Positions 3,969 through 22,834 of a stretch of 64,000 nt of DNA are shown piece by piece. The stretch is from Falsiroseomonas tokyonensis (GTDB taxonomy: Bacteria; Pseudomonadota; Alphaproteobacteria; Acetobacterales; Acetobacteraceae), in contig NZ_JAFNJS010000001.1 of assembly GCF_019024325.1 (NCBI RefSeq), positions 992,001-1,056,000 on the forward strand. The letters are read 5' to 3'. Numbering within the stretch: position 1 is the stretch's first letter; the number at the start of each line of letters is the position of its first letter. A program made the position numbers and the translations under genes. The notes beneath the pieces were generated by a model. The model was not told the origin of the DNA. It saw only the letters and a program-made list of their open reading frames with translations, and ran no database searches.

Positions 3969-4577
3969 CTACTCCGCCCGCGCCGGCTGATGCGCCAGGT
4001 AATGTGCCAGCGCCGCGATGGCGTCGTCCGGCACGCCGTACATCACCGCGTTCATGTTGGTGTCCGTGCCGCGCCGCTGGCTGTCCCGGTACTGCGCCAG
4101 GGTGTGGCGCAGGAAATCCTCGCGCTGGGCGGCGATGCGCGGGATCTGGTTGCGGCCGCGATAGTCCGGCAGGTGGCAGACGCCGCAATTCATGCTGGCC
4201 GAAAGCTGCTGGCCGCGCTCGGCCAAGGCGGCGTCGCGCGGTGCCAGGTCCGGCGGCGGCGCCGGGGCCAGCGCGGCGAAATGCGCGGCCAGGTCCTCCA
4301 CCTGCTGGTCCGTCAGCCCCTGGGAGAGCTGGTTCATCGGCTCCGCCTGGCGCAGGTTCTCGCGGAACAGGATCATCTGCAGCGTGATGAACTCCGCCGG
4401 CTGCCCCGCCAGGGAGGGGATCTTTTCCAATTCGCTGATGCCGGCCGCGCCGTGGCAGCCGGCGCAGTTGCGCGCCTCGGCGAGGGCAGCGCCCCGCGCC
4501 GCATCCTGCGCGGCGGCGGGGGTCAAGGCGCCGGCGGCCAGTGCGGCCGCCAGCAGGGCGCTTCGCAGAAAGGTCAC
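3969..4577 (-). CDS. di-haem cytochrome c (c4-like), periplasmic
   Basis: 202-residue exported cytochrome with an N-terminal signal peptide ending near AAAQ (residue 24). Two haem-binding sites, CAGCH (38-42) and CGVCH (131-135), lie in two similar halves, the layout of cytochrome c4-type proteins. Downstream methionines could be axial ligands. It starts with GTG, and the GTGA overlap (4574-4577) couples it to the upstream PQQ dehydrogenase, so it most likely receives electrons from that enzyme and passes them to a terminal oxidase. Confidence 0.88.
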   Translation of the reverse strand: MTFLRSALLAAALAAGALTPAAAQDAARGAALAEARNCAGCHGAAGISELEKIPSLAGQPAEFITLQMILFRENLRQAEPMNQLSQGLTDQQVEDLAAHFAALAPAPPPDLAPRDAALAERGQQLSASMNCGVCHLPDYRGRNQIPRIAAQREDFLRHTLAQYRDSQRRGTDTNMNAVMYGVPDDAIAALAHYLAHQPARAE

Positions 4578-5794
4578 TGGCGGTAGGTGATCCGGTAGAT
4601 CGCGCCGTACTGTTCCTCCGCCACCAGCAGCGATCCGTCGCGCATCACATGCACATCGACGGGCCGGCCGAGGAAGCGCTGGTTGGCCTCGTCCCGGAAG
4701 CCTTCCAGGAAGGGCTCGATGCCGGTGACATTGCCCTGCGCATCCAGCTTCGCGACCACCACGTCGTAGCCGTTCAGCCTTTCGCGGTTCCAGGACCCGC
4801 GGCGGGCGATGAAGATCTGGTTGCGATAGGCCTCGGGGAACATCGTGCCGGTGTAGAAGCGCATGCCGAGTGCCGCGACATGCGGGCCGAGCAGCGCGGC
4901 GGGCTGGGCGAATTCGCTGCAGTTGCGCTGCGCCGGCGCGCCGGGGTCGGCCCAGTCGCCGACACAGAAGGGAAAGCCGTGATCCTCGCCGCTGCGGCGG
5001 ACGCGGTGCAGCGTGTCATTGGGGATGTCGTTGCCGGCCCAGTCGCGGCCATTGTTGGTGGCCCAGAGCTCGCGGGTCTGCGGATGGTGGTCCATGCCGA
5101 CGCTGTTGCGGATGCCGCGCGCCTCGATCCGCCGGTCGCTGCCATCGGGGCGGAAGGAGACCAGCAGGGCGAAGCGGTCGCGGTCGAAGTCGCAGACATT
5201 GCAGGGCACGCCGACATTCATATAGAGGCGCCCATCCGGGCCGGGCGTCACGAACTTCCAGCCGTGATGCTCCTCCGTCGGCAGGGCGAAGGCGGCGGTC
5301 AGGTCCGTGCCGCTGCCCGGATTGTCCAGGTTCTGCTCGATATTGTCGAAGCGCAGCACGCGGTTGATGGCGATGACGTAGAGATTGCCGTCCATCACCG
5401 CGATGCCGTTGGGCTGGTTCAGCCCCTGCAGCAGCGTGCGGGTGCGCGTGGTGCCATCCGGGTTGCGGGTGATGGCATAGACGCGGCCGATGGTGCGGCT
5501 GCCGGCGAAGATGGTGCCGTTGGGGCCTTCCGCCATCATCCGCGCGCCGGGAATGCCATGGGCATAGATTTCGGCGGTGAAGCCCTGCGGCAGGCGGATG
5601 GCGGAAAGCGGCAGCTGCTCGCGCGGCGTCACCGTCAGGCGCGGGGCATGCGGGGCCAGGGTGGCGGCCATGCCGCTGCCCTCGCGGCCGATGGCCCAGG
5701 CGGGGGCGGGCGCGGCGGGTTGCTGGGCCTGGACGGCGGGTGCCAGGCAGAGCGCCGCCAGCAGGCCTGCCGCGGCGAAACGGGTTCGGACCAT
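4574..5794 (-). CDS. PQQ-dependent sugar dehydrogenase, L-sorbosone dehydrogenase-like
   Basis: 406-residue soluble periplasmic six-bladed beta-propeller dehydrogenase (COG2133, GDH-B/sorbosone dehydrogenase group). A signal peptide covers residues 1-23 (ending VQAQ). Family signatures include GLNQPNGIAV, HHGWKFVTPGPDGRLY, GIRNSVGMDHHP followed by LWATNNGRDW, and AARRGSWNR-like sequence near residue 330. These surround the PQQ and Ca2+ site in homologues. The stop overlaps the start of a di-haem cytochrome c, an expected electron acceptor. The actual sugar or aldehyde substrate cannot be read from sequence. Confidence 0.85.
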   Translation of the reverse strand: MVRTRFAAAGLLAALCLAPAVQAQQPAAPAPAWAIGREGSGMAATLAPHAPRLTVTPREQLPLSAIRLPQGFTAEIYAHGIPGARMMAEGPNGTIFAGSRTIGRVYAITRNPDGTTRTRTLLQGLNQPNGIAVMDGNLYVIAINRVLRFDNIEQNLDNPGSGTDLTAAFALPTEEHHGWKFVTPGPDGRLYMNVGVPCNVCDFDRDRFALLVSFRPDGSDRRIEARGIRNSVGMDHHPQTRELWATNNGRDWAGNDIPNDTLHRVRRSGEDHGFPFCVGDWADPGAPAQRNCSEFAQPAALLGPHVAALGMRFYTGTMFPEAYRNQIFIARRGSWNRERLNGYDVVVAKLDAQGNVTGIEPFLEGFRDEANQRFLGRPVDVHVMRDGSLLVAEEQYGAIYRITYRQ

Positions 5795-12537: not shown

Positions 12538-13089
12538 TCAGCGCGAGGCGGGGGCGGCCTGGGCCTGCATCAGGGCGAGCAGCCCTTCCAGCATCTGCGC
12601 CGGGCTGGGCGGGCAGCCGGGGATCAGCAGGTCCACCGGCAGCAGCTGCGCGATGCCGCCTTCCACCGCATAGCTGCCCTTGAAGACGCCGCCATCCACC
12701 GCGCAATCCCCGGCGGCCACCACCCAGCAGGGCTCCGCCGCCGCGGCGCGCGTGCGCTCCACCGCCTCCCGCATGTTCCGGCTGGCGGGGCCGGTCACCA
12801 GCAGCACATCGGCATGGCGGGGGGAGGCGACGAAGCGCAGCCCGAAACGCTCCAGGTCATAGAGCACGCCGGATAGGGCGGTGATCTCCAGCTCGCAGCC
12901 ATTGCAGGACCCTGCATCGACATGCCGGATCGAAAGGCTGCGGCCGAGCCGGGTGCGCGCCGTCGTCTCCAGCTTCGCCGCCAGCGCCTGCACCACCTCC
13001 TCCGGCGGCGCCTGCACCGGCTCGCTCAGCGGGCGGGAGGTGAGGGCGCGTGCGAGCTTGGGCCAGAGCATTTTCTCGCCACTCCTCAT
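12538..13089 (-). CDS. hyfI: hydrogenase-4-like small subunit (NuoB/HyfI family)
   Basis: 183-residue subunit carrying the proximal [4Fe-4S] cluster of NuoB/HycG/HyfI proteins. All four cluster ligands are visible: Cys62 and Cys65 in GSCNGCELEI, Cys129 in GDCAVDGG and Cys159 in PGCPPSP. The cluster site is therefore intact even though the partner large subunit lacks NiFe ligands. The start ATG at 13089 overlaps the stop of the preceding 78-residue ORF (ATGA). It is the last gene of the hyf-like operon. Confidence 0.88.
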   Translation of the reverse strand: MRSGEKMLWPKLARALTSRPLSEPVQAPPEEVVQALAAKLETTARTRLGRSLSIRHVDAGSCNGCELEITALSGVLYDLERFGLRFVASPRHADVLLVTGPASRNMREAVERTRAAAAEPCWVVAAGDCAVDGGVFKGSYAVEGGIAQLLPVDLLIPGCPPSPAQMLEGLLALMQAQAAPASR

Positions 13090-13322
13090 GCCGTTCTTGC
13101 CACGCGGAACAGGTCGTTGCCCTCGGGGTCGCGGAGAACGAGTTCGGTGCCGGGGGCGACCCGCTCGGCCAGCCATCCGATCTCGTCCAGCGCATGGGCG
13201 CGGTCGTCATAGGCCCAGTGTTCGAGGATGCCGCGGCCCGGGCCCGGCTTGATCAGGGTGATGGTGAAGAGCCCCGAGGCCCCCTGCGCCGCCCCCGCGC
13301 GCGACGGATGGCGCCCACTCAT
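13086..13322 (-). CDS. 78-residue protein of unknown function within hyf-like operon
   Basis: Small soluble-looking protein between the large and small hydrogenase-like subunits. Its stop overlaps the hyfI start (ATGA), which argues that it is translated. The segment from residue 18 reads as a compact domain (LFTITLIKPGPGRGILEHW, then DEIGWLAERV and LVLRDPEGNDLF). It has no cysteines, so it cannot replace the HyfH ferredoxin that occupies this place in E. coli. The first 15 residues are low-complexity and the true start could be internal. Family not recognised. Confidence 0.55.
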   Translation of the reverse strand: MSGRHPSRAGAAQGASGLFTITLIKPGPGRGILEHWAYDDRAHALDEIGWLAERVAPGTELVLRDPEGNDLFRVARTA

Positions 13323-13330
13323 CTTTTGGT

Positions 13331-13672
13331 GCCCTCATACGCCGGGCGGCCGCATCCGCGGCCTTGGCTTCGCGCCGGTGCACTGGCGCGCCGGGCGGGG
13401 CGGCTCGTCTGGGCGCGGGCCGCCTTCGCGGCCTGGATTTGTCCTGTGCCCTCAGACGCCGGGAGGCCGCATCCGCGGCCTTGGCTTCGCGCCGGTGCAC
13501 TGGTGCGCCAGGCGGGGCGGTGGGTCTGGGCGCGGGCCGCCTTCGCGGCCTGGATTTGTCCTGTGCCCTCAGACGCCGGGCGGCCGCATCCGCGGCCTTG
13601 GCTTCGCGCCGGTGCACTGGTGCGCCGGGCGGGGCGGCTCGTCTGGGCGCGGGCCGCCTTCGCGGCCTCGGC
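13331..13672. repeat. 117-bp tandem repeat, about three copies, between hyfG and the small ORF
   Basis: Copies begin at 13331, 13448 and 13565 (period 117, exactly 39 codons); the third is slightly truncated. Units differ at only a few positions. Each unit holds two hairpin-forming palindromes, around GCCGCGGATGCGGC and GGCCGCGAAGGCGGCC (minus-strand sense). Because the period is a multiple of three, several frames stay open through the array and give 39-residue peptide repeats, but no signal of a real gene is seen. It fills the 385-base gap between hyfG and the 78-residue ORF. Related sequence recurs at 63481-63590. Confidence 0.85.
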
Positions 13673-13707
13673 CTGCGGCCGCCGGCGCGGGGAGGCGGGG
13701 TGCGCCG

Positions 13708-15216
13708 TCACAGGTCCACCCCGCTGTACGAACAGTTGAAGCTCTTGTTGCACAAGGGAAAGTCCGCGACGATGTTGTCCTGCATGGCGGCTTCCAGCAG
13801 TGGCCATTGCAGCCAGGACGGGTCGCGCGGGAAGACGGCGCGGATAAGCCCGCCATCGTCCAGCGCCATCCAGGTGACGATCTCGCCCCGGAACCCCTCG
13901 ACCAGCGCCAGCCCCTCGCCGCCCTGCTGCGGCAGGGGCGCGTAGATCTCGCCCGGCGGCAGGGTGGCCAGGATGCGGCGGACCAGGCGGATGCTTTCGG
14001 GGATTTCCGCAGCCCGCACCCGCAGCCGGGCATCCACGTCGCCCTCCTCCCGCAGCGCCAGGCGAGGCGGGCCGCCGGCATAGGGGCCATTGGGGAAGGC
14101 GAGGCGCGCATCGAAGCCGCGGCCGGAGGCGCGGCCGACCACGCCGCCTGCCGCGAATCCCGCGGCGAGCGCCGCCGTCACCACCCCGGTGCCCACCACC
14201 CGGTCCTGCAGGCTGGCATGGCTGTCATAGACGGCCGCCAGCGCCGGCAGCTCCGCCTCCACCGCCGCCAGCGCGGCCAGGATCGCCGCGATGCCGGAGG
14301 GCATCGGCTCCGCCGCCACGCCGCCCGGCGTCACCCGGTCCATCATCAGCCGGTGTCCGAAGGCCTCGAAGTTCGCGCGCAAAAGGCCTTCGCGCAGCAA
14401 GCCGCAGCGGGCCTGCGGCCAGGCGAAGGACGCGTCGTTGCAGACGGCGCCCCAGTCGCCCAGGTGGTTGGCGATCCGCTCCAGCTCCAGCATCGCCGCG
14501 CGCAGCCAGATGGCGCGTGGCGGTGGCGTGGTGGCGGTGGCGGCCTCGGCGGCTTCCGCGAAGGCCAGGGAATGCGCCACGGTGCTGTCGCCGGACAGGC
14601 GGGCGGCGAAGCGGGCCGCGGTGCGGGGCGACTTGCCGAGCATCAGGCCGAGCGTGCCCTTGTGGTTGTAGCCGAGGCGCTGTTCCAGCCGCACCACCAG
14701 CTCGCCCTGCACGGTGAAGCGGAAATGGCCGGATTCGATGACGCCGGCATGCACCGGCCCGACCGGAATCTGGTGCCAGCCCTCGCCCTCCACGGGCAGG
14801 AACACCGGCTGCTCCGCCGGCACCTGGTTCCGCAGCGGGCGCGCGGACAGCGGCGCGGTCAGCGGCCAGCGGCCGTGGTCGAGCCACGGGCGGAGATCCG
14901 CCGCGCCCTCCGCCTGCAGGCCCCAGAGGTCGCGGATCATCCGCTCGAACCGCACCGCGCCGGGCCGGGCGGGGGAGAGTGCCGGGTAGCGGCCGCCCTC
15001 CGCCGGGCTGCTGGCCAGCAGCAGGGTGGCGCTGGCTTCCTCCAGTAGCGCGACATGCACGAAGCCGGGCTCCGCCCACATCGACAGCAGCGCGACCCCC
15101 GGCTCCTCCAGCAGCGCGACCGGCAACCGCGCAAAATCCTCGGGCGCCAGCAGGTGGCGCGGCACGGGGCGGCAGGGCTGGGGGGTGCCGCGGCGGATCA
15201 GGGCGCTGACGCTCAT
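13708..15216 (-). CDS. hyfG: hydrogenase-4-like large subunit (fused NuoC/NuoD type) lacking N-terminal NiFe ligands
   Basis: 502-residue protein: residues 1-130 correspond to the NuoC-like HycE N-domain and the rest to the NuoD/hydrogenase large subunit. The first CxxC of NiFe hydrogenases is replaced: RLSGDSTVAHS (206-216) stands where hydrogenases have RxCGxCxxAHS, so both cysteines are serine. The C-terminal motif is FPLCNKSFNC (486-495), not DPCxxC. The protein therefore cannot carry a standard NiFe centre and is more like the Ehr group (hydrogenase-related complexes). Its start overlaps hyfF by ATGA. Confidence 0.88.
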   Translation of the reverse strand: MSVSALIRRGTPQPCRPVPRHLLAPEDFARLPVALLEEPGVALLSMWAEPGFVHVALLEEASATLLLASSPAEGGRYPALSPARPGAVRFERMIRDLWGLQAEGAADLRPWLDHGRWPLTAPLSARPLRNQVPAEQPVFLPVEGEGWHQIPVGPVHAGVIESGHFRFTVQGELVVRLEQRLGYNHKGTLGLMLGKSPRTAARFAARLSGDSTVAHSLAFAEAAEAATATTPPPRAIWLRAAMLELERIANHLGDWGAVCNDASFAWPQARCGLLREGLLRANFEAFGHRLMMDRVTPGGVAAEPMPSGIAAILAALAAVEAELPALAAVYDSHASLQDRVVGTGVVTAALAAGFAAGGVVGRASGRGFDARLAFPNGPYAGGPPRLALREEGDVDARLRVRAAEIPESIRLVRRILATLPPGEIYAPLPQQGGEGLALVEGFRGEIVTWMALDDGGLIRAVFPRDPSWLQWPLLEAAMQDNIVADFPLCNKSFNCSYSGVDL

Positions 15217-16667
15217 CCCAGCAGCCTCGCCGCATCGCCGAGCAGCGCCGCGAACCAGGCCGGCAGCGCGAAGCCGAGCAGGACGGACAGCGCCAGCAGC
15301 GCCCAGACCGGCCCGCTGGCCCACCACAGCCCGCCGGGCCGCGCGAAGGCGCCCGCCACCGGCGCATCCGGCGTGGCGGGGCCGAGGCAGAGTGACTGCA
15401 TCACCCGCACCAGCGCCGCCCCCGCCAGCAGCAGGCCGAGGCCGAGCGGCAGCAGCAGCCAGGGCTGCGCCGCCGCCGCCGCCGTCACCAGCCGGAATTC
15501 CGAGACGAAGAGCGAGAAGGGCGGCAACCCGGCGAGGCCCGCAATGCCCAGCGCCAGCCCCCAACCCAGCGCCGGATGGCTGCCCGCCAGCCCGCCAATG
15601 TCCGAAATCTTCTGGCTGCCCTTGAGCTGCGCCGCGGCGCCGATGCCGAAGAAGACCGCGCTCTTCACCAGGGAATGGCCCATCAGGTGCAGCATCCCCG
15701 CGACATGGGCGCCCAGCCCGAAGGCGATGGCGGACAGGCCCATATGCTCGATGCTGCTCCAGGCAAACAGCCGCCTTGCATCCCGCCGCCGCCACAGCGC
15801 CAGCGAGGCCAGCAGCAGGGAGGCCAGGCCGAAGCCCAGCAGCAGCGGTCCCGGTTCCAGCGCCCCGGGATTGATCCCGACGATCGCCTTGGCCCGCAGC
15901 ACCGCGACCAGCGCCGCGTTCAGCAACAGGCCCGACAGCACGGCAGAGATCGGCAGCGGCCCCTCGGCCTCGGCATCCGGCAGCCAGCCATGCAGCGGCA
16001 CCAGCCCGGCCTTGGTGCCATAGCCCACCATCAGGAAGACGAAGGCGAGCGAGAGGATCCCGGGATCGCAGCGATCCGCCACCAGCCGCAAGGCGGCCCA
16101 GGACAGACCCGGATCACCGTGGCCGACCAGCGGCTGCGCCGCCAGATAAAGCAGGATCGTGCCGAACAGCGCCAGGGCGATGCCGACGCCGCATAGAACA
16201 AAAAACTTCCACGCCGCCTCGATCGCCGCCGGCGTGCCATGCACCGCCACCATCAGCACCGAGGCGAGCGTCGCGATCTCGATCGCCACCCACATGACGC
16301 CGAGATTGTCGGACAGCAGCGCCAGGAACTGCGCGCCCATAAAGATCTGGAAGGCGGCGTGATAGGCCCGCGCGCGCAGCCCGTCGAAGCGCTCGGCCTC
16401 GACCGTGGCGGCGGAGAACAGGGCCGTGGCCAGGCCGATGATCCCGCCCAGCGCCACCAGCGGCTGGTTCACCCCATCCACCCGGGTCCAGCCCTGCACC
16501 CCCTCCGGCGCCGCCAGCAGCCCGAGCGCGAGGGCGGCGCTGGCGGCGGAGACGCCGCAATTGACCAGCGGCGGCCAGCGCCCGCCCGGTGCCAGCAGGG
16601 CGAGAACCACCGCGCCGGCCCAGGGCAGGAAGACGATGAGCCAGGGCAGGGGGAAGAAATCGGCCAT
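15213..16667 (-). CDS. hyfF: hydrogenase-4-like membrane subunit F (antiporter-like, NuoN/M family)
   Basis: 484-residue protein with about 13-14 membrane helices. Features of proton-pumping antiporter-like subunits include the conserved glutamate helix (MWVAIEIATLASV), the lysine/histidine helix (GTKAGLVPLHGWLPDA) and LFAWSSIEHMGL with HSLVKSAVFF. These residues form the proton path in complex I homologues. It starts by a TGATG overlap with hyfE and ends overlapping hyfG, so translation is coupled. Confidence 0.9.
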   Translation of the reverse strand: MADFFPLPWLIVFLPWAGAVVLALLAPGGRWPPLVNCGVSAASAALALGLLAAPEGVQGWTRVDGVNQPLVALGGIIGLATALFSAATVEAERFDGLRARAYHAAFQIFMGAQFLALLSDNLGVMWVAIEIATLASVLMVAVHGTPAAIEAAWKFFVLCGVGIALALFGTILLYLAAQPLVGHGDPGLSWAALRLVADRCDPGILSLAFVFLMVGYGTKAGLVPLHGWLPDAEAEGPLPISAVLSGLLLNAALVAVLRAKAIVGINPGALEPGPLLLGFGLASLLLASLALWRRRDARRLFAWSSIEHMGLSAIAFGLGAHVAGMLHLMGHSLVKSAVFFGIGAAAQLKGSQKISDIGGLAGSHPALGWGLALGIAGLAGLPPFSLFVSEFRLVTAAAAAQPWLLLPLGLGLLLAGAALVRVMQSLCLGPATPDAPVAGAFARPGGLWWASGPVWALLALSVLLGFALPAWFAALLGDAARLLG

Positions 16668-17341
16668 CAGGGCGGGCCCTCGCCGCGCTGGCGGTCCAGC
16701 AAGCCGGTATCCAGCGTCGCCATGCGGTCGCGCAGCAGGAAGACCACGATGCCCGCGACCAGCGCCAGCATCAGCACCAGGGCGGCGGTGGACAGTTCCA
16801 CCACCAGCGGCATGCCCTGCACGCCGATCGCGGCCAGGACCAGGCCGTTCTCCAGGCTCAGCAGGCCGATCACCTGGCTGATGGCATTGCGCCGCGCGAT
16901 CATCATCAGCATGCCCAGCAGCACCACGGACAGCGCCAGCGCCAGGTTCTCGCGCGTCAGCGCCTGGGCCTGGCCGGCGGTGACCGGCAGCACCACCATC
17001 ACCGCGAGCCCGACCAGCGCGGCGGCGGCGAGCAGGGAGGGCCCGATGCCCAGCGCCGTCTCCACCGTGCGATGCAGGCCAAGCCTGCGCAGCAGCAGCC
17101 GCAGCGCCAGCGGGATCAGCAACGCCTTGGCGCCGAAGGCGAGCAGGGCGGTGACATAGAGGCCGGGTTCGGACTGCAGATGCGCCTGCCAGGCCGCCGC
17201 GGCCGCCAGCAGCCCGCCCTGCACCGCGAAGGCATTGATCACCGCATCGAGCCGCCGCTGATACAGCAGCACGAAGGACAGCAGCAGGATGCCGCCGCCG
17301 AGGAGGTGGGCGATGTCGTAGCCGGTGCTGCCGAAGGTCAT
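16667..17341 (-). CDS. hyfE: hydrogenase-4-like membrane subunit E (NuoK-like)
   Basis: 224-residue polytopic membrane protein of the HyfE family, the NuoK-related subunit of group 4 hydrogenases. About seven helices are seen; the C-terminal half carries the NuoK-like segment with IGLLSLENGLVLAA, which contains the membrane glutamate. The ATG at 17341 (MTFGSTGYDIAH) is used because upstream in-frame sequence translates the GC palindrome rather than protein. Its stop overlaps the hyfF start (TGATG). Confidence 0.85.
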   Translation of the reverse strand: MTFGSTGYDIAHLLGGGILLLSFVLLYQRRLDAVINAFAVQGGLLAAAAAWQAHLQSEPGLYVTALLAFGAKALLIPLALRLLLRRLGLHRTVETALGIGPSLLAAAALVGLAVMVVLPVTAGQAQALTRENLALALSVVLLGMLMMIARRNAISQVIGLLSLENGLVLAAIGVQGMPLVVELSTAALVLMLALVAGIVVFLLRDRMATLDTGLLDRQRGEGPP

Positions 17342-17396
17342 GGCGGGGCGTCCCGGTGAATCTGCGCCGCGGGCGGGGAAGCCGGTGCCAGGTCTG

Positions 17397-17510
17397 GCGC
17401 AGCCCCCCCCACCCAACCCTCCCCCCCCTGCGGGTGGAGAGGGCTTTGCCAGCAGCACAGGAGCCCTCTCCCCCCTACGGGGGGGGGAGGGTTGGGTGGG
17501 GGGGCTGCGC
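17397..17510. repeat. 114-bp near-perfect inverted repeat in the hyfC-hyfE gap
   Basis: The left arm starts GCGCAGCCCCCC with ACCCAACCCTCC and the right arm ends with its complement (GGAGGGTTGGGT, GGGGGGCTGCGC). Inner arms GGAGAGGGCT and AGCCCTCTCC pair as well, leaving a short loop near 17450. This is the most symmetrical member of a dispersed C/G-rich palindrome family also seen at 28363, 37645, 55656 and 61670. It lies where E. coli would have hyfD, which is absent here. Confidence 0.8.
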
Positions 17511-17531
17511 CGAAAAGGCCCGCCTTCCGCA

Positions 17532-18491
17532 TCACGCCAGCCTCGTCGACAGGAACAGCAGCAGCGCCGCCAGCAGCCCGAGCAGCAGCGCCGTCCCCAG
17601 AAACTCCGGCACCCGGAACACCCGCATCTTGGCGATCGCGCTCTCCAGCCCCGCCAGCGCCAGGCACAGCACCGCCATCTTCGCGCCCCAGGCCAGCAGC
17701 CCCACCAGCCAGCCGAGCGGCGCGAAGCCCACCGGCGCCGTGCCGAAGGGGAAAAAGATCGCCGCCAGCAGGGCCAGCCACAGCGTCAGCCGCAGCGCGG
17801 CGGCGGCCTCCCATAGCGCCAGATGCCGGCCCGAGGCTTCGAGGACCATGGCCTCATGCACCATGGTGAGTTCGAGATGCGTGGCCGGATTGTCCACCGG
17901 GATGCGGCCATTTTCCGCCAGCGCCACCGCCAGCAGCGCCACCAGCGCCAGCCCCAGCGAGACCCGCAGACCGAGGCTGCCATCCTGGAACAGCGTGCCG
18001 ATCGCCTCGAGCCCCGTGCTGCCGGCCAGCATGGCCAGCACCAGCGCCACCAGCAGCAGCGCCGGTTCCGCCAGCGCCGCGAAGGACATTTCGCGGGCAG
18101 CCCCCAGCCCGCCGAAGGCGGTGCCGACATCCATGCCCGCCAGCGCCAGCGCCACGCGCCCGGCCGCCAGAAGCCCCGCGATCAGCACCAGGTCGGCCAG
18201 CGGCGCGAAGGCCATCCCTCGGGAAAAACTCGGCACCAGCGCCAGCGCGGCCAGCGCCGCGGTGGCCCCCGCATAGGGCGCGGCACGGCTGATCCAGCTG
18301 GCATTCTCCGCCAGCACCGGCCGCTTGCGGAGCAGCTTGAGAAGATCCCAGAGCGGCTGCAGCGGCGGGGCGCCGGTGCGGCCCATCATGCGCGCCTTCA
18401 GCCAGCGCGTGCCGCCCACCACCAGCGGCGCCGCGGCCAGCACCAGGGCCAGGTGCAGCGCCTGGGTCAGGATGGCGGCGAGTATTTCCAT
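17532..18491 (-). CDS. hyfC: hydrogenase-4-like membrane subunit C (NuoH-like)
   Basis: 319-residue membrane protein of the NuoH/HyfC family with eight helices. The first cytoplasmic loop (TRWLKARMMGRTGAPPLQP) and the acidic loop AENGRIPVDNPATHLELT are the quinone-chamber and electron-module contacts in complex I relatives, and EAMVLEASG follows. The ATG at 18491 overlaps the hyfB stop as TGATG; a GTG one codon upstream is also possible. Confidence 0.9.
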   Translation of the reverse strand: MEILAAILTQALHLALVLAAAPLVVGGTRWLKARMMGRTGAPPLQPLWDLLKLLRKRPVLAENASWISRAAPYAGATAALAALALVPSFSRGMAFAPLADLVLIAGLLAAGRVALALAGMDVGTAFGGLGAAREMSFAALAEPALLLVALVLAMLAGSTGLEAIGTLFQDGSLGLRVSLGLALVALLAVALAENGRIPVDNPATHLELTMVHEAMVLEASGRHLALWEAAAALRLTLWLALLAAIFFPFGTAPVGFAPLGWLVGLLAWGAKMAVLCLALAGLESAIAKMRVFRVPEFLGTALLLGLLAALLLFLSTRLA

Positions 18492-20614
18492 CACCCCGCC
18501 TCCAGCCAGGCGGCCAGCGCCAGCAGCGCCACCAGCGTGCCGAAGGGCAGCATCAGGGTCGCGGTCAGCGGCAGGTCGCGCAGCGCCTCCGCCCGCGCCG
18601 CCAGCGCATCCCGAAGCCGCGCCAGCGGGGCCAGCAGCCAGCGTTCTGAGGGATCGGCGAAGCCGGACTCCACCCGCGCCGGGCCCGGGTCGCCCGGCGC
18701 CGGCATCGTCACGGATTCATGCGCCGCCAGCAGCGACCCGCCGAGCATCCGCCGCAGCGGCTGGCCGAAGCCCGCGGCGCTGGGCTGGGTCACCGGGTCG
18801 CCGAAGGGCAGGTGCTGTGGCGGTGCCATGAAGCCGCAATCCCAGGCGGCTGCGCGCGCCACGCCCGCCGGCGCGCGCCGGCGCACCAGCCACCAGACCA
18901 GGGCACCCGCCACCGCCAGCAGCAGCGCGATGGCCAGGGGCATGATGCGCGCCCCGCCATCGCCGACGCGGATCATGGCCAGGCTGCCGCGCTCCACCAT
19001 GCCATGCGGCACCAGCAGCTGCACCGCACCCTCGGCCAGGGCCAGCAGCGGCCCGGGCAGCAGGCCGAACAGCAGGGTCAGCCCCGCCGGCAGCAGCAGC
19101 GCCAGCCGTGCGGCGCCGCGCCCCTCCACCGCCCCGGCGGCGCGCGGCGTGCGCGGCCGGCCGAGGAAGACCAGGCCGAACAACCGCACCATGGCCGCCG
19201 CCGCCAGCGCCGCGGCCAGCGCGGCCGCCGCCACCACCGCGACCCCCAGCACCTGGAAGGCCAGGTCCCCCACCCGCCAGGCCGCCAGCATCGCCTGGAT
19301 CAGCAGCCATTCGCTGGCAAACCCCGAAAGCGGCGGCAGGCTGGCCGCCGCGGCCGCGCCCACCAGCACGGCGCCGGCGGTCCAGGGCATGGCATGGATC
19401 AGCCCGCCCAGCCGGTCCAATTGGCGGGAGGCCGCGCCACGCGCCACCTCCCCCAACCCGAGGAACAGCAGCGACTTGAACAGCGCGTGGTTCAGCGCAT
19501 GCAGCAGCGCCGCCCCCGCCGCCAGCCCCGCCAGCACGCCGAGATCCGCCGCCCGGAAACAGGCCGCCAGGCCGAGCCCGATGCAGATCAGCCCGACATT
19601 CTCGATGGTGGAGCAGGCCAGCAGGGTCTTGGTGTCCGTCTCCAGATTGGCGCGCAGCGCGCCCAGCACGGCGGAGGCCGCACCCAGCACCAGCAGCGGC
19701 ACGCCCCACCACAAGGGCTGCGCGGGTCCGGAGAGGTCCAGCAGCAGCCGCGCCAGCACATAGATGGCCACCTTGGTCATGGCGCCCGACATCAGGGCGG
19801 AGACATGGCTGGGCGCCGCGGGATGGGCCAGCGGCAGCCAGCCATGCAGCGGCACCAACCCGGCCTTGGCCCCGGCGCCCGCCACCACCAGCGCCAGCAC
19901 GGCCGCGGCCACGAAACCCTGCGGCGGTGCGGTGCGGATCGCGGCGAAGCTCAAATCGCCCGAGGAAGCGGCCAGCAGCCCGATGGCCGGCACCAGGCAG
20001 ATGCCGCTGAAGACCGCGAAGGCCAGGTAGCGGCGCGCGGCGTGGCGGGCCTCGGGGCTCTGGTGATCGGCCGCGACCAGGACCCAGGAGGCGATGGACA
20101 TCGCCTCGAAGCCCAGCACCAGCACGAAGCCATCCGCCGCGATCAGCGCCAGCAGCATGCCGGCCAGGAACAGCGGATAGGCCACCAGCAGCCGCGGCGC
20201 GGCATCCCGCGCATGCGCCAGCCCGAACAGCGCCGAACAGGCGGCCGCCAGCCCCAGCAGCACCAGGAACCAGGCGGAAAGCGCATCCACCGCCACCAGC
20301 GCCGTCACACCGATCGGCAGGGGTTGCGGCGCCACGGCTGCGCCGCCGAGCACGGCCAGGCCGCAGCCGGCCATCACCGCCGCCGCCAGCAGGCAGCCGC
20401 CATGGACCACAAGCCCCGCCCAGGGCCCCGCCGAGTCCCCGATCCAGACCCTTGGGGCCCGCGCCATCGGCACGGCCAGCAATGCCAGCAGGCCGAGGCC
20501 CGCCAGCGTGAGGATCAGCGCCGTCAGCACGGCAGGGGAGCGAAGCGGGTCACTGCCGCCGAGGATAGAAGCCCGCGCCGGCCGGCAGAAGGGGGCGGCG
20601 GGGGGCTGCGCCAT
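18491..20614 (-). CDS. hyfB: hydrogenase-4-like membrane subunit B (antiporter-like, NuoL/M family)
   Basis: About 707 residues with roughly 16 membrane helices, the largest antiporter-like subunit of the complex. Conserved pieces are LVLGFEAMSIASWVLV (key glutamate), GAKAGLVPLHGWLPLAHPAAPS (lysine and histidine) and LLHALNHALFKSLLFLG. The start is uncertain. The ATG at 20614 is used, a GTG at 20530 begins just before the first helix (LTALILTLAGLG), and neither has a strong ribosome site. First gene of the operon, divergent from dctQ. Confidence 0.87.
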   Translation of the reverse strand: MAQPPAAPFCRPARASILGGSDPLRSPAVLTALILTLAGLGLLALLAVPMARAPRVWIGDSAGPWAGLVVHGGCLLAAAVMAGCGLAVLGGAAVAPQPLPIGVTALVAVDALSAWFLVLLGLAAACSALFGLAHARDAAPRLLVAYPLFLAGMLLALIAADGFVLVLGFEAMSIASWVLVAADHQSPEARHAARRYLAFAVFSGICLVPAIGLLAASSGDLSFAAIRTAPPQGFVAAAVLALVVAGAGAKAGLVPLHGWLPLAHPAAPSHVSALMSGAMTKVAIYVLARLLLDLSGPAQPLWWGVPLLVLGAASAVLGALRANLETDTKTLLACSTIENVGLICIGLGLAACFRAADLGVLAGLAAGAALLHALNHALFKSLLFLGLGEVARGAASRQLDRLGGLIHAMPWTAGAVLVGAAAAASLPPLSGFASEWLLIQAMLAAWRVGDLAFQVLGVAVVAAAALAAALAAAAMVRLFGLVFLGRPRTPRAAGAVEGRGAARLALLLPAGLTLLFGLLPGPLLALAEGAVQLLVPHGMVERGSLAMIRVGDGGARIMPLAIALLLAVAGALVWWLVRRRAPAGVARAAAWDCGFMAPPQHLPFGDPVTQPSAAGFGQPLRRMLGGSLLAAHESVTMPAPGDPGPARVESGFADPSERWLLAPLARLRDALAARAEALRDLPLTATLMLPFGTLVALLALAAWLEAG

Positions 20615-20801: not shown

Positions 20802-21374
20802 ATGCCTTGGGGGATGCGTCCTTTGGGCCCGTTGCTCGCCTTCAGCCGCGGTGTCGATGCCGTGACCGCCGGCTTCGGGCGGATCGCCGACTGGCTGGTG
20901 CTGATCGCCTGCACCGTCAGCGCCGGCAACGCCTTCCTGCGCTACGGCTTCTCCGCCGGGTCCAATGCCTGGCTGGAGCTGCAATGGTATTGCTTCGCCG
21001 GCATGGTGATGCTGGGCGCCAGCCATACGCTGCGGCGGAACGAGCATGTGCGGGTGGACCTGGTCTATGGCTCGCTCGGCATGCGGGCGCGCATCTGGGT
21101 GGATATCCTCGGCCTCAGCTTCTTCCTGCTGCCGGCCATGGCGCTGCTGGCCTGGATGACCTGGCCCTTCTTCCTCGATTCCTGGGCGCGGGCGGAGGTT
21201 TCCTCCTCCCCCGGCGGGTTGCTCCGCTGGCCGGCCAAGCTGCTGCTGCCGCTGGGTTTTTTCCTGATGTGCGCGCAGGGGTTTTCGGAAATCGTGAAGC
21301 GCGTGGCGGTGCTGCGAGGGATCGAGCTGCCGCGCGGCCAGCTTTTCGCCACCTATGCCCGGCCCGATCAATGA
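20802..21374 (+). CDS. TRAP transporter small permease (DctQ family)
   Basis: 190-residue four-helix subunit of a tripartite ATP-independent periplasmic transporter. Family marks are the helix with RYGF, then AWLELQWYCFAGMVMLGASHTLRRNEHVRVD near residues 60-90. An alternative ATG lies four codons downstream. It precedes the large permease by 44 bases. No periplasmic substrate-binding protein gene (DctP) is in the window, so the substrate is unknown. Confidence 0.88.
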   Translation: MPWGMRPLGPLLAFSRGVDAVTAGFGRIADWLVLIACTVSAGNAFLRYGFSAGSNAWLELQWYCFAGMVMLGASHTLRRNEHVRVDLVYGSLGMRARIWVDILGLSFFLLPAMALLAWMTWPFFLDSWARAEVSSSPGGLLRWPAKLLLPLGFFLMCAQGFSEIVKRVAVLRGIELPRGQLFATYARPDQ

Positions 21375-21418
21375 GCGCCGGCCTGCCCCTGCGACGCCCG
21401 GGAGCCTAGGGAAACAAG

Positions 21419-22834
21419 ATGCTCCACGAGGATATCATGCCGCCGCTGATGTTCGGCGGGCTGGTGATCTTCCTGCTGATCGGCTTCCCGGCGGCCTTCT
21501 CGCTCGCCGCCGTCGGGCTGTTCTTCGGCTTCATCTCCATCGAGCTCGGCTTCTTTCCGGAAGCCTGGCTGGGCAACCTGCCGCTGCGCGTCTTCGGCAT
21601 CCTGTCCAACGACCTGCTGCTGGCGATCCCCTTCTTCACGCTGATGGGCGCGGTGCTGGAACGCTGCGGCCTGGCGGAGGACCTGCTGGAGGGCACCGGC
21701 CAGCTCTTCGGCAAGATCCCGGGCGGGCTCGCCTATGCGGTGATCATTGTGGGCGCGATCCTGGGCGCCATCACCGGCACGGTGGCCGCCAGCGTCATCT
21801 CCATGGGCATGATCAGCCTGCCGATCATGATGCGCTACGGCTACGACATGCGGATCGCCACCGGCGTGATCGCGGCCTCGGGCACCATCACCCAGCTGAT
21901 CCCGCCGTCGCTGGTGCTGATCGTGCTGTCCGACCAGCTCGGCCAGTCCGTGGGCGACATGTATGCGGGCGCCATCGGGCCGTCCCTGCTGCAGGTGGCG
22001 CTGTTCCTGCTGTTCATCTGGGGCGTCTCGATGTTCCAGCCGCACAAGGTGCCGCCGCTGCCGGATGAGGCGCTGGCGCCGCGCGACTGGCGGCTGTGGT
22101 GGCGGGTGCTGAAGGGCATGGTCCCTTCGATGGGCCTGATCTTCATGGTGCTGGGCACCATCTTCCTCGGCCTCGCCACCCCCACCGAGGCCGGCGCCAT
22201 GGGCGTGGTCGGCGCCGTGGTGCTGGCGGCGCTGAACCGGCGACTGACCTGGCCGCTGATCCGGGAAGCCATGGGCAATACGATGCGGATCACCAGCATG
22301 GTGATCTTCATCCTGATCGGCGCCACGGTCTTCACCCTGGTCTTCCAGGGCGTGGATGGCGGCATCTGGATCGAGCATCTGCTCGGCCTGCTTCCGGGTG
22401 GCCAGACCGGCTTCCTGGTCTTCGTCAATGTCTTCGTCTTCTTCCTGGCCTTCTTCCTCGACTTCTTCGAGATTGCCTTCATCGTCATTCCGCTATTGGC
22501 GCCGGTCGCGAAATCCCTCGGCATCGACCTGGTCTGGTTCGGCGTGCTGCTCTGCATCAACATGCAGACGGCCTTCATGCACCCGCCCTTCGGCTTCGCG
22601 CTGTTCTACCTGCGGGGCGTGGCGCCGAAATCCGTGCTGACGCGCGACATCTACTGGGGCGCCATCCCCTGGCTCTGCCTGCAGCTGCTGCTGGTGGCGG
22701 TGGTGATCTTCTGGCCGCAGAGCGTGACCTATTGGCTGGATCGCGGGCCGCGGGTGGATCCCAGCACGGTCATCATCGACCTGCCCCCGCCGGCGGCGAC
22801 GCCGGACATGCCCGCCGTGCCGATCTTCCAATGA
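21419..22834 (+). CDS. TRAP transporter large permease (DctM family)
   Basis: 471-residue, about 12-helix subunit that uses the ion gradient to move substrate delivered by a binding protein. Typical segments are ILGAITGTVAASVISMGMISLP, ASGTITQLIPPSLVLIVL and ATPTEAGAMG. At 471 residues it is longer than the usual 425-430 because of a loop and a C-terminal extension, as in the keto-acid/lactate-type TRAP group. Stop overlaps trmO (ATGA). Confidence 0.9.
   Translation: MLHEDIMPPLMFGGLVIFLLIGFPAAFSLAAVGLFFGFISIELGFFPEAWLGNLPLRVFGILSNDLLLAIPFFTLMGAVLERCGLAEDLLEGTGQLFGKIPGGLAYAVIIVGAILGAITGTVAASVISMGMISLPIMMRYGYDMRIATGVIAASGTITQLIPPSLVLIVLSDQLGQSVGDMYAGAIGPSLLQVALFLLFIWGVSMFQPHKVPPLPDEALAPRDWRLWWRVLKGMVPSMGLIFMVLGTIFLGLATPTEAGAMGVVGAVVLAALNRRLTWPLIREAMGNTMRITSMVIFILIGATVFTLVFQGVDGGIWIEHLLGLLPGGQTGFLVFVNVFVFFLAFFLDFFEIAFIVIPLLAPVAKSLGIDLVWFGVLLCINMQTAFMHPPFGFALFYLRGVAPKSVLTRDIYWGAIPWLCLQLLLVAVVIFWPQSVTYWLDRGPRVDPSTVIIDLPPPAATPDMPAVPIFQ

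Follow-up and report, generated by a model that had tools for sequence, protein, structure and literature searches.

The window analyzed here is a stretch of 64,000 nucleotides from the genome of Falsiroseomonas tokyonensis (6.16 Mb, 99.7% complete), and all coordinates below are positions within it. Between 12538 and 20614, on the minus strand, lie six genes, hyfB-C-E-F-G-I, which correspond to hyqBCEFGI and are called so hereafter. They are predicted to encode a hydrogenase-4-like membrane complex in which the ligand positions of the nickel-iron ([NiFe]) site are replaced by other residues. Judged by its sequence, this is a complex of a known kind, HyqBCEFGI, an energy-converting hydrogenase-related (Ehr) member of the superfamily of complex I and group 4 hydrogenases.

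All six reading frames are free of internal stops. Antiporter-like membrane subunits matching Pfam PF00361 are encoded by hyqB (18491-20614; 707 amino acids, or 679 from an alternative GTG start at 20530) and by hyqF (15213-16667; 484 amino acids). The gene hyqC (17532-18491; 319 amino acids; PF00146) specifies a NuoH-like membrane subunit at which the quinone junction is expected, and hyqE (16667-17341; 224 amino acids; frame checked) a small membrane subunit. The large subunit, of NuoCD/HycE type, is encoded by hyqG (13708-15216; 502 amino acids; PF00346 and PF00329), and hyqI (12538-13071; 177 amino acids; PF01058) encodes a [4Fe-4S] protein resembling NuoB and hydrogenase small subunits. 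Two NCBIfam matches fall below their cut-offs: "hydrogenase 4 subunit B" for hyqB, its best match (561 bits versus 667), and "hydrogenase 4 membrane subunit" for hyqE (66 bits versus 136), for which the Pfam scan gave no match. An earlier note on this DNA called the genes collinear and overlapping. Their order and shared strand are correct, but only B/C, E/F and F/G overlap; C and E are 190 nucleotides apart, and G and I are 636 apart. The same note overlooked a seventh gene of the operon, with 78 codons, in the latter gap. We name it hyqX (13086-13322, minus strand). Between hyqG and hyqX is a GC-rich tandem repeat with a 117-bp unit in 2.9 copies (13329-13668; Tandem Repeats Finder score 631). 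No tRNA was detected in the window by ARAGORN, and all Rfam families stayed below their gathering scores there.

The arrangement of the six genes is conserved far beyond chance. Of 80 loci compared (L032-L111), 62 have the full set in this order. In each of the remaining 18, one or more genes went undetected, in most cases because the contig stops short, and the genes that were found keep their order. In one of the loci, from a Roseomonas metagenome-assembled genome (L033), the space upstream of hyqC is sufficient, yet no hyqB was found.

The replacement of the [NiFe] site was established by aligning a profile of 13 HyqG sequences (the window protein and 12 relatives 51-67% identical to it) with proteins of known structure. 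Residue numbers refer to a 501-residue reference (window 13708-15213); 1 is added if the initiator methionine is counted. The best PDB matches were, in order, Escherichia coli HycE (7z0s), the P. furiosus membrane-bound hydrogenase (MBH) and the 49-kDa subunits of complex I. In the alignment to HycE, all four ligand positions are replaced, by Ser207, Ser210, Ser495 and Gly498. The CGIC of HycE faces SGDS in HyqG, where Ser207 and Ser210 also match the cysteine pair of MBH, and the DPCYSC of HycE faces NCSYSG, with Ser495 and Gly498 opposite the HycE cysteines. The earlier note's claim that both N-terminal ligand cysteines have become serine in the motif RLSGDSTVAHS is therefore borne out. The C-terminal motif that it proposed, FPLCNKSFNC, is present, but its cysteines are not at ligand positions: Cys488 and Cys494 align with an isoleucine and a proline of HycE. 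HyqG has five cysteines (14, 258, 270, 488 and 494) and no CxxC anywhere in the protein, so that no intact motif lies elsewhere to take the place of the aligned positions.

Large subunits of group 4 [NiFe] hydrogenases have a C-terminal extension that is cleaved during maturation. HyqG ends at SGVDL, which aligns with SCTD of HycE, whereas HycE continues to residue 569; HyqG thus lacks an extension for proteolytic maturation. A structural model of HyqG (mean predicted local distance difference test score, or pLDDT, 86.6) is nearest to E. coli HycE, with a template modeling (TM) score of 0.86, and somewhat less similar to NuoCD of E. coli complex I (0.77-0.83). However, pLDDT falls below 50 at residues 144-164, 175-184 and 495-501, which form the pocket region, and the model is therefore silent on what fills the [NiFe] pocket.

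Conservation of these residues was evaluated in 132 distinct HyqG sequences, 131 of which have letters at the key columns (L137 is gapped); the sequences were selected for their similarity to the window protein and cannot count as independent. A reduced set of 127 leaves out four divergent sequences and the gapped one. Ser207 is serine in 126 of 131 sequences (126 of 127 in the reduced set), Gly498 is glycine in 129 of 131 (all 127 in the reduced set), and Asp209 is aspartate in 127 of 131. Every one of the 131 has Arg361, Asp368, Arg370, Arg396 and Glu439, and 124-127 of 130 sequences retain the hydrogenase-type residues H155, E160 and H163. The sole sequence with a cysteine at position 207 comes from a Xanthobacteraceae metagenome-assembled genome (L073, 2174-3538).

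The partner subunits retain what electron transfer and proton movement are expected to require. The earlier note's intact [4Fe-4S] site in HyqI is confirmed as a CxxC, C, C motif, numbered 56/59/123/153 from the MLWPK start; the earlier numbering (62/65/129/159) counts from an upstream in-frame ATG (MRSGEK...). C56, C59 and C123 are cysteine in all 127 sequences, and C153 in 125 of 126. The antiporter subunits claimed in the note are likewise real by PF00361, with key residues kept in HyqB (E170, K250 and K281 in 63 of 63 sequences; K380 in 65 of 65) and HyqF (E130 in 119 of 119, K219 in 120 of 120, K335 in 120 of 121). In HyqC, E135 is conserved in 70 of 70 sequences, E194 in 72 of 72 and D201 in 71 of 72. 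Conservation of HyqB, HyqC and HyqE was assessed in only 65, 72 and 70 sequences, because other relatives were under score limits or at contig ends. The near-invariance of the predicted cluster ligands and of the antiporter lysines and glutamates is a new result.

Loss of the CxxC motifs in this family is not itself new. Sprecher 2012 reports that HyqG of eight genera lacks both CxxC motifs, regards a [NiFe] site as doubtful or even unlikely, and describes three HyqG cysteines as "completely conserved" (PMC3357923). The window protein has all three, Cys258, Cys488 and Cys494. In the larger set, they are present in 117, 119 and 112 of 131 sequences, respectively, and so absent in 14, 12 and 19 (10, 8 and 15 of 127 in the reduced set); all three occur together in 105 of 127. 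At least one of the three is missing even from relatives at 60-67% identity (L017, L019, L020, L021). Of the 30 top-scoring loci for a HycE query, 10 (L158-L167) have both CxxC motifs and 20 (L168-L187) neither. In these 20, position 488 is cysteine in 5 and valine, asparagine or isoleucine in 15, and position 494 is cysteine in 18 and leucine in 2. A three-cysteine site as a universal catalytic site is ruled out, since each cysteine is missing in some relatives. This variability, as seen in the alignments, is a new result that weakens the published proposal of a catalytic site.

A tree of 60 of the 65 large subunits collected (five near-copies of HycE were left out) places the window protein apart from both the hydrogenases and complex I. 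Alphaproteobacterial HyqG, including that of the window, forms a branch of 31 sequences with 100/100 support, one of which (L099) is labeled Betaproteobacteria, and the window protein groups with HyqG of Rhizobium, Mesorhizobium and Azospirillum in a 100/100 branch. CxxC-bearing HycE/HyfG proteins form a branch of their own (99/98), as do NuoCD/NuoD (100/100). The HyqG branch excludes the cysteine-less sequences of Burkholderiales, Methylocalor, Rhodococcus and other Proteobacteria. Deep joins are uncertain because of long branches (L030, L031, L144, NuoCD and NuoD). Four sequences from the same bacterial family (L030, L031, L135 and L136) are fast-evolving HyqG proteins that have mostly lost the Hyq signature, including Ser207-Gly208-Asp209.

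The closest described system is hyqRBCEFGI of Azorhizobium caulinodans, reported as a NifA-controlled "endo-hydrogenase" (PMC2650096, PMC2930871, PMC3357923). Because Hyq was described in these papers of 2009, 2010 and 2012, the complex in the window is no unrecognized oddity. The interpretation of the earlier note, an Ehr-type, hydrogenase-4-like complex, stands, but the family had already been described as Hyq and its loss of CxxC published in 2012. By published description, the window shares with Hyq of A. caulinodans and other diazotrophic Alphaproteobacteria the same six genes in the same order, the CxxC-C-C of HyqI, a HyqG without CxxC and the three named cysteines. In contrast to Azorhizobium, the search of the window gave no hyqR, the surroundings of hyqB have no sigma-54 site, there is an extra 78-amino-acid gene, and neither NifD nor HypD was found in the genome.

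The Ehr concept itself reportedly goes back to Marreiros 2013. The window complex fits it in being related to group 4, in missing the [NiFe] residues and in having Mrp antiporter-like subunits. Published descriptions likewise present Ehr complexes as relatives of group 4 hydrogenases that themselves lack the Ni/Fe-coordinating residues (PMC6349859, PMC10284858), and Mrp antiporter-like subunits are common to Ehr and the window complex. Ehr complexes of Margulisbacteria have been paired tentatively with formate dehydrogenase genes (PMC6349859), whereas no such neighbor was seen here. Formate hydrogenlyase and hydrogenase-4 (HycE, HyfG; PDB 7z0s) provide the nearest solved structure by both sequence and model, and the hyq genes are in hyf-like order; unlike them, the window complex lacks the [NiFe] ligands, has no hyfA, D, H, J or R in its gene array and belongs to a separate clade. 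It differs from respiratory complex I in having no genes for NADH input in the array and in two residues of the quinone site, discussed below. Six-gene hyf clusters with the same gene set are known from other lineages. Those of Cupriavidus metallidurans (PMC2864759) and Acidithiobacillus ferrooxidans (PMC7735108) were judged unlikely to be hydrogenases, the large subunit of the latter being a non-hydrogenase by HydDB (PMC7735108). In Acidithiobacillus caldus, hyfBCEFG clusters, for which no hyfI is named, lie near a carbonic anhydrase gene, or near formate dehydrogenase and carbon-fixation genes, and were taken for hydrogenases (PMC3826726). HyqG of Cupriavidus has no CxxC, and its positions 488 and 494 are isoleucine and leucine.

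The additional gene, hyqX, is conserved in all 15 genomes of the genus. Its ratio of nonsynonymous to synonymous substitution rates relative to the window ranges from 0.07 to 0.53 over 14 pairs, calculated as simple pairwise counts in a GC-rich gene. The hyqX stop codon overlaps the upstream in-frame ATG of hyqI, and the distance from hyqX to the CxxC codons of HyqI is 176-190 nucleotides across the genus genomes. On its other side, the hyqX start overlaps the hyqG stop by 4 nucleotides in 4 of the 15 genomes, and the other 11 have a spacer of 18-411 nucleotides (385 in the window, mostly the 117-bp repeat). Since the spacer ranges from -4 to 411 nucleotides, repeats may have entered a once tightly coupled operon. 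Beyond the genus, hyqX was found in none of the 148 other genomes of the family sample and none of 8 further genomes, and no match was obtained in the loci searched there (best E value 0.55).

The HyqX protein has no cysteine and no match in Pfam or NCBIfam; its sole sequence match in the PDB is weak, to 30 residues of a designed coiled coil (E value 0.001). A model built from two sequences (mean pLDDT 81.7) predicts strands at 19-25 and 31-38, a helix at 41-52, and strands at 60-64 and 70-75. None of 696 Foldseek matches had an E value of 0.001 or less. Among the weak, nonsignificant ones (TM 0.28-0.40) was PsaD of photosystem I, which we take to be a ferredoxin-docking subunit. A degenerate HyfH ferredoxin was considered and rejected, given the lack of cysteines, the predicted beta-beta-alpha-beta-beta fold and the lack of a significant fold match. 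HyqX appears to be a lineage-specific accessory protein, perhaps one acting in docking or assembly. It is a new addition to the operon as judged from the sequences, with no claim as to print, since no literature search was aimed at it.

Genes flanking the operon were examined for a regulator or an electron donor. An XRE-type gene (HyqR) lies directly upstream of hyqB in 33 of the 59 loci with hyqB and 1.5 kb or more of upstream sequence. Neither the window nor five loci of the same family that were checked (L032, L033, L036-L038) yielded one, and we do not treat hyqR as defining Hyq because 26 of the 59 loci have none. Pfam scans covered 90 of 107 upstream and 107 of 127 downstream candidate neighbors, the rest having been left out by hand, with genes called by a heuristic based on GC content at third codon positions. 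HTH_3 was detected in 22 of the 90 and 6 of the 107. Among the 25 commonest of the 112 and 169 families, each non-HTH family occurs in at most 4 neighbors (DctP, for example, in 4 upstream). Within these families only the XRE regulator recurs widely; therefore, no donor gene is regularly linked to the operon, and a dedicated donor gene adjoining it was rejected. Other clusters of neighbors are rarer (ABC-ATPase-like in 14 loci, DctM-like in 8 including the window). No ferredoxin-like (HyfA/HyfH) or NADH-input subunit is present in the gene array, and formate dehydrogenase was likewise not seen as a neighbor, in agreement with the earlier note. A sigma-54 promoter was also rejected: two one-mismatch sites occur in the window, which is the chance level, and neither is near hyqB; NifA boxes were not searched.

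Several neighborhoods are recorded here as separate observations. In the window, genes for DctQ and DctM of a tripartite ATP-independent periplasmic (TRAP) transporter (20820-22834, plus strand) are head to head with hyqB; the DctM-like cluster occurs in 8 of 81 compared sequences, the window included, mostly from the same bacterial family. Farther away (3972-5794, minus strand), a cytochrome c gene adjoins a glucose/sorbosone dehydrogenase-like gene, possibly a periplasmic dehydrogenase pair. On Methylovirgula plasmid pHY1 (L149, 1-4219), a hyq operon with a helix-turn-helix (HTH) gene at its head adjoins a divergent F-type ATP synthase operon with AtpZ/AtpI, possibly an N-ATPase. On Variovorax plasmid 3 (L145) and Paraburkholderia plasmid pBN1 (L146), hyfB is immediately preceded by a fused major facilitator superfamily (MFS)/spermidine synthase gene, with a universal stress protein gene nearby; the Variovorax plasmid has a second NuoC/4Fe-4S gene pair just upstream. 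HypD was found in 2 of the 90 upstream-neighbor proteins, so in a few loci hyq adjoins hydrogenase maturation genes.

We also determined whether Hyq accompanies [NiFe] maturation or nitrogen fixation. HypD (PF01924), a marker of [NiFe] cofactor assembly, was the sole maturation marker searched and stands in for all Hyp genes. It had no match in the F. tokyonensis genome, and it matched in 4 of 14 control genomes. The earlier note had found no maturation gene nearby and suggested a genome-wide search; for HypD, the absence holds genome-wide. Nor was a [NiFe] large subunit (PF00374) other than HyqG found in the genome. In 12 genus genomes, PF00374 gives one partial match each (61-63 positions), inside HyqG, which passes the cut-off in 6 of them; that of the window, at 21 bits, does not. 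Over the 15 genus genomes, HyqG is present in all and HypD in one (G014), and NifD is above its cut-off in none, the window's own genome included. Matches of 19-22 bits, against a NifD cut-off of 653.55, occur in 5 of the 15.

A broader sample comprised 240 alphaproteobacterial genomes, incomplete ones included, in which HyqG was counted at an E value of 1e-60 or less and NifD above its curated cut-off (7 genomes; 18 if weaker matches are included). HyqG was detected in 26 genomes, NifD in 7 (3 shared with HyqG) and HypD in 16 (6 shared), so that 23 of the 26 Hyq genomes lack NifD above the cut-off and 20 lack HypD. Without three genomes with divergent HyqG (G055, G060 and G192), NifD is present in 3 of 23 and HypD in 5 of 23. 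A statement of 2010 that hyq is generally absent from non-diazotrophs (PMC2930871) is contradicted by this co-occurrence, although gene absence in single draft genomes is weak evidence. Hyq is thus not tied to nitrogen fixation or to hyp genes, a new result that weakens the published claim regarding diazotrophy. Control by NifA and sigma-54, and co-occurrence with nif genes, is a trait of A. caulinodans rather than of the Hyq family.

Functional data come from A. caulinodans. There, hyq is induced by NifA, and its deletion slows diazotrophic growth (PMC2650096). In diazotrophic culture, hyq deletion raised H2 release 15-fold over the parent, and hyq hup double deletion 45-fold (PMC3357923). 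Under microaerobic conditions, hyq deletion in a hup-minus strain lowered H2 release from 61,000 to 14,000 pmol per 10^9 cells per min, and a nifK hup strain with intact hyq released 56,600 pmol per 10^9 cells per min (PMC3357923). Deletion of a 20-gene hup/hyp operon leaves H2 recycling in place, and Rhodocista centenaria, which has hyq without hup/hyp, is also said to recycle H2, for which the paper states that data are not presented (PMC2930871). By the authors' account, a cell-free assay was not at hand, and the hyq deletion also removed the regulator hyqR. A word search of the 2009 and 2012 papers gave no genetic complementation among the matches listed (for 2009, the best 12 of 14). The earlier note's statement that donor and substrate are not known still holds, since the published H2 phenotypes are in vivo only and derive from whole-operon deletions that include the regulator.

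We tentatively favor, at a probability of roughly 0.45, the reading that Hyq is a redox-driven proton pump that moves electrons in exchange between quinone and a soluble carrier. In this scheme, which would be reversible, the single HyqI cluster would relay electrons between quinone, at the junction of HyqG, HyqI and HyqC, and a low-potential ferredoxin- or flavodoxin-like carrier, which would dock at the place taken by HyfH in Hyf complexes; transfer would be coupled to proton movement through HyqC, HyqF and HyqB. In diazotrophs, this would link the proton-motive force to electron exchange with the low-potential pool supplying nitrogenase, and the NifA induction and slowed diazotrophic growth count in favor of this reading; in Falsiroseomonas, the complex would serve another low-potential reaction. 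Several points weigh against it. One cluster makes a very short electron path. Although the equivalent of Nqo4 Asp139 is kept (Asp260, in 125 of 131 sequences), the positions of Nqo4 His38 and Tyr87, which we take to be the quinone-head ligands of complex I, are Ile159 (125 of 130) and Gly208 (125 of 131), and therefore a complex I-type quinone site is not conserved. The H2 phenotypes, together with the output of the nifK hup strain, are not predicted by simple electron delivery to nitrogenase. Finally, Hyq genomes carry NifD and HypD more often than the rest of the sample does (Fisher p = 0.030 and 0.0034 for the 26 genomes; 0.021 and 0.011 for the 23), which implies some association of Hyq with H2 or N2 metabolism. 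Our confidence is held at this level because the quinone-head ligands are unlike those found in complex I and because the reading accounts for the H2 phenotypes only in part.

Conversion of some other small substrate in the former [NiFe] pocket, such as formate or another two-electron donor, with electrons passing by way of the HyqI cluster to quinone, we consider unlikely. Consistent with it are the near-invariant Ser207 and Asp209 and the five invariant charged residues, whose place in the pocket lining is conjectural, as well as the retention of H155, E160 and H163 rather than complex I quinone ligands; a formate role has also been suggested for hyfBCEFGI of Acidithiobacillus (PMC7735108). 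However, HyqG has no cofactor-binding family in Pfam or NCBIfam beyond those of complex I and hydrogenases, no dehydrogenase recurs among the neighbor families listed, and pLDDT is low where the model shows the pocket. A nickel-independent H2:quinone oxidoreductase, the Azorhizobium "endo-hydrogenase", in which HyqG would activate H2, perhaps at a site of other residues, is in our view improbable, even though the diazotrophic and microaerobic deletion phenotypes speak for it, the high microaerobic H2 release of the nifK hup strain genuinely supports it (PMC3357923), and H2 recycling without hup/hyp, including that of Rhodocista centenaria, agrees with it (PMC2930871). The evidence is in vivo only, from a deletion that took hyqR too and with no complementation among the matches listed; each of the three proposed cysteines is missing in a dozen or more relatives, and most sampled Hyq genomes lack NifD above its cut-off. 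We also know of no chemistry by which H2 would be activated without a metal site. Its extension to Falsiroseomonas, making Hyq there a widespread nickel-free H2 enzyme descended from a disarmed hydrogenase, exchanging electrons between H2 and quinone with the 78-amino-acid protein as an added subunit, is more doubtful still.

A redox-silent ion transporter or a decaying relic also seems improbable. The fast-evolving branch of L030, L031, L135 and L136, with its motif largely lost, would suit decay, but the HyqI cysteines and proton-path residues are near-invariant, HyqG is present in all 15 genus genomes, and the six genes keep their order in 62 of 80 loci, contig ends accounting for most of the other 18. 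As to an ordinary [NiFe] hydrogenase with ligands elsewhere in HyqG, 2 of the 40 plasmid records listed annotate a relative as a nickel-dependent hydrogenase large subunit; this reading is refuted by the ligand alignment and the HypD search, there being no CxxC, no remaining ligand at the aligned positions, no HypD found and no C-terminal extension, and we give it practically no credence.

The redox-driven proton pump thus stays our preferred, provisional reading, and the Falsiroseomonas locus may help in evaluating it. The sole functional claim for the family is that of a bidirectional hydrogenase lacking [NiFe] ligands; its chemistry is odd, and its evidence comes from deletions of the entire operon. 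The genus-specific hyqX provides a new handle on the partners of the Hyq complex. Because NifD, HypD and any other [NiFe] large subunit were not detected in the Falsiroseomonas genome, any hyq-dependent H2 exchange or proton pumping there would be due to Hyq itself, which makes this organism a clean background for the study of Hyq function.

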